A DNA stretch of 64,000 nt from a bacterium 336/3 (GTDB lineage Bacteria > Bacteroidota > Bacteroidia > Cytophagales > Thermonemataceae), in NCBI GenBank assembly GCA_001281695.1, contig LJIE01000001.1, forward strand, positions 3,557,521 through 3,621,520, given 5' to 3'. The notes under the pieces are model-generated. The model was not told where the DNA came from. It did not search any database and worked only from the letters and a program-made list of their open reading frames with translations. This document shows positions 12,133 to 34,797 of the stretch, in pieces; within the stretch, counting starts at the first letter, position 1; the number at the start of each line of letters is the position of its first letter. Position numbers and translations under genes: made by a program.

Positions 12133-14526
12133 ATGCTTCGTTTGCTTGCTATATTATTATTGTTGTTTTCATATTTTAAAAGCTCTGCTCAAAGTAATTT
12201 GAACACTCTGCTTCAAAAATCTATGAATACACGTAAGGATAGTAATTTTGTGAAATTGTATATAGATATCGCAAAAGAGTATGAAGAGGCTTCAAAATTA
12301 GATTCAGCTATTTTTTATTGCCAAAAAAGTGTTGATTTAGCACGAAAAATAAACTTCCAAAAAGGCGAAGCTCAAGCTCTAAGTTATTTGGGTGAATACC
12401 AAGAAAACAAAGGCTTTCAACTAGATGCTATTAAATACTACAATGCAGCCTACACAATTTATACTCAATTAAAAAATAATGCAAGAGCAGCTACTATGCT
12501 TAATTATATAGGTATTGTTTACGATTCCTTAGGTGAGTTTGATAAAGCATTAAAATACTTATTTCAATCTGCTCAAATTAAAGAAGACATTCATAATTTA
12601 TCAGGGCTTGCAGATGTTTATAATGATATTGGGATTGTATACGAACAAATGAAAGAGTATACTAGAGCATTGGAGTATTATTCAAAATCTCTTAAAATTT
12701 CAGAACAACAAAATTTATCTGCAAAAAAAATATCTAATTTATACAATAATATTGGCGTTGTTTATTATGACCAAAATGAGTTTGATAAAGCTTTAGAGAA
12801 TTTTAACAAATCCTTAGAAATCAGAAAGTCTATTAAAAGCCCTAAAATTGAAAGTAATTACTACAATATTGCTAATATTTATTTTCATAAAAAAGATTTT
12901 ACAAAAGCCTTAGAGTTATATTTAAAAGCTTTTTCATTAGTTTCTGAACAAGAATCGCCTCAAAAAGTTTCTAATTATAATATTACCATTGGACAAACCT
13001 ATTTGTATTTACAGAAGTACGATTCCGCAGCTAAATATATACAAACAGGTTATAATATATCTAAAAAGTATAATTATAAATATGCTGAGTTATATGCTTA
13101 TTTCATACAAGGAAAATTAGATTCTGTACAAAACAATTATCAAAAAGCTTTTGAAACTCAAAAGAAGTATATCATACTTAAAGATTCTTTACTCAATTCA
13201 GAAAGAGTTGCCCAAGTTGCCAAATACCAAACAGTTTATGAAACTGAAAGAAAAAATGCTGAAAATGAAATCTTAAAAAAAGATAAAGAAAAGGAGTATG
13301 TTGAAAACAACTTACTCCGTGAAATGCAAAGGGCTCAAACAGCCGAAAATGAAGTTTTAAGAAAAGAACGTGAAAAAGAAGATATACAAGCCCAATTTCA
13401 AGAAAAAGAAAATTTATTTTTAAGACAAGCACAAAGGCTTAGAGAACTTGAAAACAAGAATTTAAAACGTGAAAAAGAAGATTTAGAAGTTAAAAAAATG
13501 ATTTCTGATGGTGAAAAAGACAAGCAAATTAAACTTCAGTTTTGGGCAATATTTTTTTCATCCATTGTTATTGTTCTTATTTTAGGCTTATTGCTTGCTT
13601 TGTATCATTCTAGTATCAAAAAAAATGTTGCTTACAAGCTTCTCAAAGATAGTACAAATGAGATTCAACACAAAAATGAGGAGATTTCTTCCCAATCAGA
13701 AATTTTAAAACTATACAACGAGCAAATCAAACAACAAAACAAAGAACTTGTCAATGCATATTCCAAAATGACAGATAGCATTATATATGCTGAACGTCTA
13801 CAATATGCTGTTGTAGGAAACGAGCAAGATTTAAAAATACTTTATCCTGAATCTTTTGTATTATATATGCCTAAAGATATTGTTTCAGGAGATTTTCTTT
13901 GGACTACCCAAATAGAGCAACTCAAGATTACTGTTGTTGCTGATTGTACGGGGCATGGTGTACCTGGCTCACTGATGACTTTTTTAGCCATTTCTGCTTT
14001 AAATGAGATTATTTACACCAAACATATCACAACTCCTAAAGAAATTTTAGAAGAACTTGACAAAAAAATCATAGAATTTTTAAGTAAACATTCAGAAAAA
14101 TTGCAAAAATCTGATGGTATGGATGCTGTGGTAATCTGTATGGATGAGTCTAATAAAATGTTATATTATTCAGGGGCTAAAAATCCTTTATATAGAATCC
14201 GAAATGGGGAATTGAGTGTTTTTAGTGGAAGTATGTTTTCTTTAGGTTTTAATATTTTTGAAGAAGGAAAAGTATTTACAAATCAAGCTATACAACTGGA
14301 AAAAGGTGACATGTTTTATGCTTTTTCAGATGGTTATCAAGACCAATTTGGTGGTGATGGAGAAAAACCAAAGAAGTTTTTAAGTAAAAAGCTTAAAGAG
14401 TTATTAATAGAAATTTCAACCCTTCCTCCACAAGAGCAAAAAAGCATCTTGATACAAAAACTAAAAAAATGGAAGGGTTTATATCCTCAAACAGATGATA
14501 TTATTATGGTTGGTTTGCAAGTTTAG
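12133..14526 (+). CDS. TPR sensor with SpoIIE/PP2C-type phosphatase domain
   Basis: A signalling protein of 797 residues. Order: signal peptide (1-19); about eight TPR units (30-350, for example FDKALENFNKSLEIRKS); a long coiled coil rich in K/E (370-465); one membrane helix (468-493, FWAIFFSSIVIVLILGLLLAL); a second coiled coil (500-545); and a SpoIIE phosphatase domain (553-797) with PKDIVSGDFLW, VADCTGHGVPGSLM (near 602) and SDGYQDQFGG (near 732) metal-binding motifs. The TPR part should be periplasmic and the phosphatase cytoplasmic. SpoIIE domains remove phosphate from STAS-domain proteins; such proteins occur at 33.4 kb, but no operon link exists. The stop codon overlaps the convergent gene by 4 bases. 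Confidence 0.9.
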   Translation: MLRLLAILLLLFSYFKSSAQSNLNTLLQKSMNTRKDSNFVKLYIDIAKEYEEASKLDSAIFYCQKSVDLARKINFQKGEAQALSYLGEYQENKGFQLDAIKYYNAAYTIYTQLKNNARAATMLNYIGIVYDSLGEFDKALKYLFQSAQIKEDIHNLSGLADVYNDIGIVYEQMKEYTRALEYYSKSLKISEQQNLSAKKISNLYNNIGVVYYDQNEFDKALENFNKSLEIRKSIKSPKIESNYYNIANIYFHKKDFTKALELYLKAFSLVSEQESPQKVSNYNITIGQTYLYLQKYDSAAKYIQTGYNISKKYNYKYAELYAYFIQGKLDSVQNNYQKAFETQKKYIILKDSLLNSERVAQVAKYQTVYETERKNAENEILKKDKEKEYVENNLLREMQRAQTAENEVLRKEREKEDIQAQFQEKENLFLRQAQRLRELENKNLKREKEDLEVKKMISDGEKDKQIKLQFWAIFFSSIVIVLILGLLLALYHSSIKKNVAYKLLKDSTNEIQHKNEEISSQSEILKLYNEQIKQQNKELVNAYSKMTDSIIYAERLQYAVVGNEQDLKILYPESFVLYMPKDIVSGDFLWTTQIEQLKITVVADCTGHGVPGSLMTFLAISALNEIIYTKHITTPKEILEELDKKIIEFLSKHSEKLQKSDGMDAVVICMDESNKMLYYSGAKNPLYRIRNGELSVFSGSMFSLGFNIFEEGKVFTNQAIQLEKGDMFYAFSDGYQDQFGGDGEKPKKFLSKKLKELLIEISTLPPQEQKSILIQKLKKWKGLYPQTDDIIMVGLQV

Positions 14527-33301: not shown

Positions 33302-33336
33302 AATAAAGAGAGGTGCTTTCAGCACCTCTCTTTATT
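33302..33336 (+). terminator. Terminator after ctaB
   Basis: A strong 16-bp stem (33302-33317 with 33321-33336) with a GC-rich AGAGAGGTGCT core, loop TTC, followed by T-rich sequence. Confidence 0.9.
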
Positions 33337-33409: not shown

Positions 33410-33829
33410 ATGAACTCTGAGAATTTATATTCTAATAATTCGGCTAATATTTCATATCTCCCTGAAATCAGTACGATTTACTTGGAGTTTATTGGCAAAA
33501 TAGAAAATGATGATTATAAAGCATCTTATAACAAACTTCTAGAATTTATTTTAGCAAAAGATGCTTCTGCTATTATCACAGACCAAACCAAAAGTAAAGG
33601 TGGTAGTATGGAAGCAAGAGCTTGGCTTGTTGTAAATTGGCTACCAGAAGTAAAGAAAGAACTTGGTGATAAAAAAATATTAGTAGCAGGTATCTCTGAA
33701 GCCAAATTTGGCTTTAAAAAGTTTATCAGTCAATATATAGAACAAACTGTAAAAAAAATGACCCCATTTCCTATTGAAGTGTTTGAGAATTTGCAAGATG
33801 CTATTAATTGGATTCAAAAAAATTCATAA
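33410..33829 (+). CDS. STAS/SpoIIAA-like protein, paralogue 1
   Basis: 139 residues. Predicted order: strand (TIYLEFIGKI), helix (YKASYNKLLEFILAK), strand (SAIITDQTKSKG), helix (ARAWLVVNWLPEVKKEL), strand (KKILVAGIS), helix, and a last strand-helix (FPIEVFENLQDAINWIQ). That order fits the SpoIIAA/STAS-like fold with its typical 'eeAlaWl' end. The DQTKS segment falls where STAS proteins carry their phosphorylated Ser/Thr; this is inference. No signal peptide. First of three tandem copies. Confidence 0.7.
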   Translation: MNSENLYSNNSANISYLPEISTIYLEFIGKIENDDYKASYNKLLEFILAKDASAIITDQTKSKGGSMEARAWLVVNWLPEVKKELGDKKILVAGISEAKFGFKKFISQYIEQTVKKMTPFPIEVFENLQDAINWIQKNS

Positions 33830-33842
33830 ATAATTAGTAAAC

Positions 33843-34262
33843 ATGATTTCTGAGAATATTTACAACAATGCTTCCTCTAATATCTCTTATTTAACAGATA
33901 TAGAAACTATCTATTTAGAATTTATTGGAAAAATAGATAATACAGATTTCAAAGATTCATATAATGTATTGATGGGATTTATCTTATCAAAAGATGCGAA
34001 AGCCATCATTATAGACCAAACCAAAAGTAAAGGAGGTAGTATGGAATCCAGAGCTTGGCTTATTGTCAATTGGCTACCAGAGCTAAAGAAAAGTTTAGGA
34101 GAAAAGAAAATTCTGGTAGCAGGTGTATCAGAAGCTAAATTTGGTTTTAAAAAATTTATCACCCAATATTTAGAACAAACTATAAAAAAGCTTACACCTT
34201 TTCCTATAGAAGTTTTTGAAAACTTACAAGATGCTGTCAATTGGATTAAAAAGAATTCATAA
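33843..34262 (+). CDS. STAS/SpoIIAA-like protein, paralogue 2
   Basis: 139 residues, clearly a tandem duplicate of the preceding gene (13 bases away): the DQTKSKGGSME, AWL-VNWLPE, KFGFKKFI-QY-EQT-KK and FPIEVFENLQDA-NWI-KNS blocks are the same. Differences are scattered, mainly in the N-terminal 50 residues, so the copies are not recent. Function unknown; could form homo- or heteromers with its neighbours. Confidence 0.7.
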   Translation: MISENIYNNASSNISYLTDIETIYLEFIGKIDNTDFKDSYNVLMGFILSKDAKAIIIDQTKSKGGSMESRAWLIVNWLPELKKSLGEKKILVAGVSEAKFGFKKFITQYLEQTIKKLTPFPIEVFENLQDAVNWIKKNS

Positions 34263-34307
34263 ACATTTTTTATGGTATAATGTTCTTTAAAGAAAATCAG
34301 TAAAATT

Positions 34308-34738
34308 ATGCCTTCTGAAAACATTTATTCGAATGATTGTTCTAATATTTATTATATTCCAGATATTCATACTCTACATTTAGAGTTTGTTGGAAAAATA
34401 GATAGTGATGAGTATAAAAATGCTTTTAATAAGCTTTTAGAGCTCATCATCAGTAAGAATGCTGATGCCATTATTGCCGACCAAACCAAGAGTCAAGGCA
34501 GTGCCATGGATTCAAGGGCATGGCTTGTTGTAAAATGGCTTCCAGAATTAAGAAAAGAACTTGGAGATAGAAAAATTCTTCTTGCAGGTATTTCAGAAAC
34601 CAAATTTGGTTTTAAGAAAGTGATTAGTCAGTATATAGAACAACTTTCAAAAAAATGACTGCTCTGCCAGTAGAAAGTTTTAGTAAGATAGATGATGCTA
34701 TCCAATGGATTAAAAGTAACAGACAAAATCAAGATTAG
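34308..34738 (+). pseudogene. STAS/SpoIIAA-like protein, paralogue 3, frameshifted at an A7 tract
   Basis: The frame matches the other copies up to residue 116 (QYIEQLSKK), then meets TGA at 34656-34658. The missing end, MTALPVESF followed by DDAIQWIKS, continues in the +2 frame to a TAG at 34736-34738. The break is in a run of seven A (34649-34655); eight would restore one frame of about 143 residues aligned end to end with the paralogues. Either a pseudogene, a homopolymer sequencing error, or a slippage-controlled gene. Here the substitution DQTKSQGSAMDS replaces DQTKSKGGSMEA. Confidence 0.75.
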
Positions 34739-34743
34739 CAAAG

Positions 34744-34777
34744 AATAAAAAAGCCCTTTTACAAGGGCTTTTTTATT
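34744..34777. terminator. Bidirectional terminator between the STAS cluster and tuf
   Basis: A perfect 15-bp stem AATAAAAAAGCCCTT (34744-34758) with its complement (34763-34777), loop TTAC, T-rich in both directions. Confidence 0.9.
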
Positions 34778-34797
34778 CTAAGTATATGAATAGAGTA

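Follow-up and report, generated by a model that had tools for sequence, protein, structure and literature searches.

The locus comprises three consecutive open reading frames on the forward strand of the window (the whole 64-kb stretch of DNA that was analysed), bounded by two strong hairpins (Table 1). The frames, numbered copies 1 to 3 along the strand, are separated by 13 bp (copy 1 to copy 2) and 45 bp (copy 2 to copy 3). When copy 1 was used to search its own genome, copies 2 and 3 were retrieved at levels far above chance (E = 4.4e-72 and 7.1e-51, respectively), and the preliminary description of three adjacent paralogues in tandem thus holds. It was also correct in assigning to all of them a common DQTKS segment near residue 58, which we located at residues 58–62 in 3/3 copies. 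At residue 66, the alignment has Ser in copies 1 and 2, and Ala in copy 3. Pairwise dN/dS values were 0.10 (copy 1 versus 2), 0.14 (copy 1 versus 3, up to the stop codon of copy 3) and 0.19 (copy 2 versus 3), with dS among the three copies of 1.42–1.49, indicating that the copies are fairly old and under purifying selection. Copies 1 and 2, having both been retained for long, are probably both functional. For the sub-functionalisation that the preliminary description read into the moderate divergence of the copies, this selection is the one relevant result.

Table 1 Features of the three-gene unit and its flanks, in window coordinates
Feature	Coordinates	Strand	Basis
Probable terminator upstream of the unit: 16-bp hairpin, then U-rich sequence	33302..33336	+	Folding
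Copy 1, 139-aa SpoIIAA-like (PF11964) protein	33410..33829	+	ORF; PF11964 31.5 bits; AlphaFold STAS-type fold
Copy 2, 139-aa paralogue	33843..34262	+	ORF; 78% identity to copy 1; PF11964 21.6 bits
Copy 3, 116-aa paralogue cut off early by TGA	34308..34658	+	ORF; 67% identity to copy 1
Copy 3 remainder in a different frame, with the C-terminal strand and helix of the family	34655..34738	+	Translation MTALPVESFSKIDDAIQWIKSNRQNQD
Probable bidirectional terminator: 17-bp hairpin in the gap between copy 3 and the convergent, presumably tuf-like gene	34742..34779	.	Folding

The upstream hairpin has a folding energy of −23.5 kcal/mol (z = −7.08) and the downstream hairpin one of −22.6 kcal/mol (z = −7.06); in both cases, 0 of 200 shuffled sequences folded equally well. 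Since strong hairpins bound the unit on both sides, the trio is probably transcribed separately from the gene upstream of copy 1, which we take from the look of its sequence to be cyoE-like, and from the convergent gene beyond copy 3, which by the same token is presumably tuf-like. A scan for promoter- and terminator-like patterns returned 10 and 2 instances, respectively, versus 14.1 and 1.8 expected, and flagged neither of the flanking hairpins.

The unit had been described as ending at 34738 with a shared 'eeAlaWl'-type ending. This position is not the in-frame end of copy 3, in which a TGA (34656–34658) directly follows a run of seven A residues; copy 1 has a run of eight at the same place. 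Copies 1 and 2 encode this ending in frame; in copy 3, the conserved stretch MTALPVES...DAIQWIK is encoded in a different frame, up to the stop at 34738, and residues 131 and 134 (A131 and W134) are missing from the in-frame product. Identity to copy 1 was 11/23 in the copy 3 tail versus 78/116 before the stop, a difference that is not significant (p = 0.097), and pN between the two copies was 0.35 in the tail versus 0.18 before the stop. Copy 3 may be decaying, specialised or mis-assembled at the A7 run, and slippage is a further candidate. The 101-nt stretch of copy 3 that begins at the A run folded less stably than most shuffled sequences (z = +1.55; 188 of 200 were at least as stable), and no stimulatory structure for frameshifting was therefore seen. 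A specialised set, in which copies 1 and 2 would be switchable at Ser66 and copy 3, locked by its Ala66, would be made in short and long forms through −1 slippage on A_AAA_AAA before the TGA, is in our estimation a very long shot. Elsewhere in the genome, a SpoIIE gene (L103, C1:131000-135500), whose N-terminal part we take by its look to be TPR-like and coiled-coil-like, is also frame-broken, at a point between about 133513 and 133553; isolated breaks thus do occur in this assembly.

Copy 1 matched the Pfam family PF11964 ("SpoIIAA-like", once DUF3478) with 31.5 bits, above the gathering cut-off of 25. Copy 2 scored 21.6 bits, under this cut-off, and the Pfam search with copy 3 gave no match; both were placed in PF11964 through their identity with copy 1 (78% and 67%, respectively). 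Among 16 aligned family members, 11 matched PF11964 at E ≤ 0.01, and the STAS and SiaC models were listed for none of them at this threshold. No PF01740 (STAS) match was listed for copies 1–3 at E ≤ 10, in a search whose HMMER filters drop most weak matches, and neither the PF01740 matches obtained in the own genome at E ≤ 1 nor its seven matches to PF09345 (SiaC) include the trio. The NCBIfam search returned no match for any of the three copies, and the PDB, searched by sequence, yielded weak, chance-like matches only.

To describe conservation, we used 33 family rows, which were not thinned for relatedness. These consisted of the 30 family matches having loci, two further own-genome members (L004, and L006 with E = 0.0047) and copy 3; matches without a locus, L005 (the copy 3 tail), L007 (a weak match inside an 817-aa frame) and L036–L038 were excluded. 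The best-conserved positions were W72 (33/33), A131 (30/33), and W77, P79 and W134 (29/33 each). DQTKS is therefore not the best-conserved stretch of the family, as these Trp, Pro and Ala positions rank above it.

The AlphaFold model of copy 1, obtained with 8 sequences (pLDDT 84.1, pTM 0.79), contains strands at residues 4–8, 12–17, 22–29, 54–62, 91–95 and 122–125, and helices at 33–49, 67–85, 102–117 and 128–138, with residues 99–103 being unreliable. The best Foldseek matches were 8ih8 (a UsfX-RsfB entry), 2q3l, SiaC (6k4f, 7e6g), SpoIIAA (1h4z, 1thn) and 2ook. The match to 2q3l (E = 1.3e-5, 21% identity) superposed poorly (TM 0.54, rmsd 6.5), and RsbS superposed better (TM 0.61); 6k4f and 2ook had E values of 3.2e-4 and 9.7e-4, respectively. 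In VIA, RsbS (Z = 11.7), the SpoIIAA chain of 1thn (Z = 11.4) and 2q3l (Z = 11.4) were tied, and 2ook and SiaC reached Z = 9.3 and 9.1; the VIA list also contains CtpB proteases (Z = 9.9). The STAS/SpoIIAA-like fold proposed in the preliminary description is thus supported for copy 1 by the PF11964 assignment, the predicted model, and the Foldseek and VIA matches. In terms of the model, the fold alone cannot separate the SpoIIAA-like family from phospho-STAS proteins, since RsbS and SpoIIAA score as high as 2q3l and the structure is not family-specific.

The place of SiaC among the top structural matches raises the question of whether the trio could act in the manner of SiaC, regulating a diguanylate cyclase or some comparable target, with SpoIIE-type phosphatases of the SiaA kind acting on them. 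SiaC is frequent in this order, and the genome combines 7 SiaC with 23 SpoIIE matches. The likeness stays at the level of the fold, however: the trio has no SiaC family match, nor has any of the 16 aligned members at E ≤ 0.01; a profile comparison with SiaC gave less than 1% probability; and the Thr that is invariant in SiaC (15/15) has no invariant counterpart in the trio's family. We consider this reading highly improbable.

We then turn to the phosphorylation site. The trio had been proposed to act as partners of a SpoIIE phosphatase, that is, as STAS antagonists with a phosphorylation site in DQTKS from which the SpoIIE sensor encoded at 12133 would remove the phosphate. Such a role would fit the STAS-like fold, the position of the SpoIIE gene 19 kb from the trio, and the retention of the segment as DQTKS in all three copies and as DQTQS in the nearest relative (L008). 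According to the available text of Kumar et al. (PMC2954212), the phospho-Ser of SpoIIAA sits at the start of helix 2, and the canonical Ser switch is likewise described in the available part of a review of STAS-only proteins (PMC8256260). In the model, by contrast, DQTKS lies inside strand 54–62, before helix 2 (67–85). Residue 60 (the Thr of DQTKS) is Ser/Thr in 14/33 family rows and residue 62 (the Ser) in 8/33, which argues against phosphorylation in this segment. Absence of a Thr or Ser in DQTKS that is conserved among homologues had been named beforehand as what would refute the proposal, and this is what was observed, with neither site being Ser/Thr in 15/33 rows. Within residues 60–69, the best Ser/Thr position is residue 66 (19/33 rows), and no invariant Ser/Thr acceptor was found around the start of helix 2 among the 33 rows. 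Aligned control families keep their acceptors: the invariant Ser is retained in 16/16 canonical STAS proteins from the own genome and relatives (L039, L040 and 14 of the 20 loci L057–L076), and Thr64 is likewise unchanged in 15/15 SiaC proteins sampled from the order, which represent 15 of the 20 loci L077–L096.

Ser66 deserves separate consideration as the site of a non-canonical partner switch, in which copies 1 and 2 would be phosphorylatable and copy 3, with Ala66, would not. This residue is present in 17/19 members of the closer, 'RAW'-type subfamily (the exceptions being Ala in copy 3 and Asn in one other) and directly precedes helix 67–85 in the model. Two profile alignments to canonical STAS, with probabilities of 8.5% and 12.4% and a register that is not firm, agree in placing S66, M67 and E68 opposite the S, S and A of the SSAG motif, so that Ser66 falls next to the second Ser, the one that is invariant in canonical STAS. 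A Ser (Ser66) is also found there in the SpoIIAA-like protein of S. loihica, as far as the available text of PMC2954212 describes it. The same alignments, however, put Met67 on the invariant Ser, a position that is Ser/Thr in 3/33 rows, and Glu68, which is never Ser/Thr (0/33), next to it. Moreover, residue 66 is Ser/Thr in just 19/33 rows of the wider set, and the window contains no kinase gene matching PF13581. A helix-cap role would account for the conservation of Ser66. Ser66 may therefore cap helix 2 or, less likely, serve as an acceptor; its location next to helix 2 keeps a non-canonical switch a slight possibility, which on balance we regard as unlikely.

The SpoIIE domain attributed to the gene at 12133 is real, with a PF07228 match at C1:3571450-3572043 (window 13930–14523) inside ORF 12133–14526. 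To place its distance from the trio in context, we counted the PF07228 matches of the genome, of which there are 23, two of them being pieces of one broken gene. Using 21 C1 match starts, after removal of one split-gene piece and of a match located on C2, we determined that a random C1 position has a SpoIIE match start at most 19 kb away in 18.7% of cases; one such neighbour is thus a 19% event, and the distance between the trio and the SpoIIE gene tells little. None of the 24 own-genome PF13581 matches falls within the 64-kb window, in line with the earlier statement that no anti-sigma kinase is adjacent. A genome search for an HATPase_c partner, as had been suggested, did find a canonical STAS-HATPase pair, in which a STAS gene (YISSAGLG, 60 bits) overlaps a 143-aa HATPase gene by 4 bases (C1:3365500-3366230), but this pair lies about 225 kb before the trio. 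With proximity expected by chance at this rate, an acceptor in DQTKS that is not conserved and the canonical pair located elsewhere, the role of the trio as SpoIIE-phosphatase partners is not supported, and we judge it most unlikely. Canonical STAS and SiaC proteins, rather than the trio, would be the expected substrates of the SpoIIE phosphatases. A STAS fold together with a nearby SpoIIE gene is not enough to define a partner-switching module, least of all where the genome counts 23 SpoIIE matches.

One relative has a tandem set of four SpoIIAA-like copies (L050:8161-10139), including a nearly identical pair, and, at a distance of about 3 kb, a SpoIIE-type gene whose product is 31% identical to the SpoIIE protein of the window. 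This arrangement speaks mildly for a SpoIIE link in that relative.

The SpoIIAA-like family is widespread in Cytophagales. Besides the own genome, 25/58 genomes have a family match at E ≤ 0.001, with up to 11 per genome, and tandem sets of 2–4 occur in at least five of these 25 (pairs in G006, G007, G010 and G030; four copies in G008). In the tree, the trio forms one clade (support 0.973), whose sister is L008, the only close copy in G004 (51% identity to copy 1), suggesting that the duplications happened after the split from that relative. The three same-genus genomes (G001–G003) each contain a single match, which is of the L004 type, and no near relative of the trio was found in them; the trio may have been lost in these genomes or gained here. 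In the same three genomes (L097, L098 and L099), the L004-type gene and a SiaC gene are about 1.4 kb apart, separated by peroxiredoxin-like and dehydrogenase-like genes. The own-genome L004 stretch (19 kb) has no SiaC match, and this proximity was set aside as a functional link.

Comparison of the window proteins with the loci of 10 relatives revealed no conserved direct neighbour of the trio. The nearest relative, L008, adjoins in L043 a translation-GTPase gene, lepA-like by its look, whose product is 26% identical to the tuf-like protein of the window; at this identity it is a different gene and was rejected as a conserved neighbour. An all-against-all comparison of 14 loci and 21 kb of the window gave as the widest neighbour clusters one present in 6 loci and one in 5 loci, presumably glycosyltransferase-like and dehydrogenase-like, respectively, from the look of the sequences. 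Both come from large families and are absent from the window, and both were discarded as context for the trio. Searches of genome contigs confirmed 0/60 stretches with copy 1 alone and 4/33 with alignment A2, and the viral-contig search confirmed 0/6.

We next compared the family with the crystallographically characterised SpoIIAA-like proteins of Shewanella (2ook, 2q3l). The available text of Kumar et al. (PMC2954212) gives Gly27, Tyr34, Trp71 (in helix 2), Ala88, Phe114, Ala120 and Trp123 as conserved in SpoIIAA-like proteins. Their counterparts, assigned by eye, are G29, Y36, W72, A93, F125, A131 and W134, kept in 25, 25, 33, 26, 23, 30 and 29 of the 33 rows, respectively. The trio thus resembles PF11964/DUF3478 of Shewanella in the family model (for copy 1), the predicted fold, the helix-2 Trp (33/33), the landmark Gly, Tyr, Ala, Phe and Trp residues, and the lack of a conserved phospho-Ser. 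It differs in its identity of about 20%, the conserved W77-x-P79 and the presence of three tandem copies. By eye, moreover, Thr30, His31, Asp72, Asp73 and Gly77 of the Shewanella proteins are not kept in the trio, and Asp73, which forms a cavity pair with Tyr34, is replaced by Val at residue 74. With the canonical STAS anti-anti-sigma factors (SpoIIAA, RsbV; PF01740), the trio shares the fold (VIA Z of 10–11.7 to SpoIIAA and RsbS), but it lacks a PF01740 match, an invariant acceptor near the start of helix 2 and an adjacent HATPase_c (PF13581) kinase gene.

We favour, with somewhat better than even confidence, the reading that the three-gene unit is a lineage-specific tandem expansion of a SpoIIAA-like gene, without the STAS phosphoswitch and working like the Shewanella proteins. 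It builds on the established three copies, their family, predicted fold and purifying selection, and on the finding that no Ser/Thr position near the start of helix 2 is invariant. One SpoIIAA-like gene would have been duplicated in tandem after the split from the nearest sampled relative, giving rise to proteins with a predicted STAS/CRAL-TRIO-type fold and without the conserved STAS phospho-acceptor. From crystals of the Shewanella SpoIIAA-like proteins, an open/closed switch, a nonpolar cavity and membrane association have been proposed, according to the available text of PMC2954212. By analogy, helix 2 with its conserved Trp may act as a hinge or membrane-facing element next to a nonpolar pocket, and could alternate between a closed state and an open one that exposes the cavity and may associate with the membrane. 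The trio would then be small proteins binding either a nonpolar ligand or another protein as partner, rather than phospho-switched antagonists, with the ligand, the membrane step and the function all inferred from the Shewanella pair. Counted against this preferred reading are the preference of Foldseek for RsbS over 2q3l, the tied VIA scores, the Shewanella residues missing from the trio (Asp73 of the cavity pair among them), the failure of copies 2 and 3 to reach the PF11964 cut-off, the Ser kept in S. loihica, the conservation of Ser66 in the closer subfamily, and the lack of a neighbour that ties the trio to a pathway.

The publications found on SpoIIAA-like/PF11964/DUF3478 proteins were structural papers only, which in their available text assign no function to the family. 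Similarly, the available text of those found on PF11964, on SiaC/SpoIIE partner switching and on STAS in Bacteroidetes contained no treatment of tandem PF11964 sets. The trio looks like an ordinary tandem expansion within an already known, poorly understood family, and such tandem sets are reasonable material for probing the proposed ligand or membrane switch. Apart from the trio, the genome holds a large phosphatase/SiaC signalling set, comprising the 23 SpoIIE and 7 SiaC matches, as well as a second STAS protein, which carries YIDSSGL.
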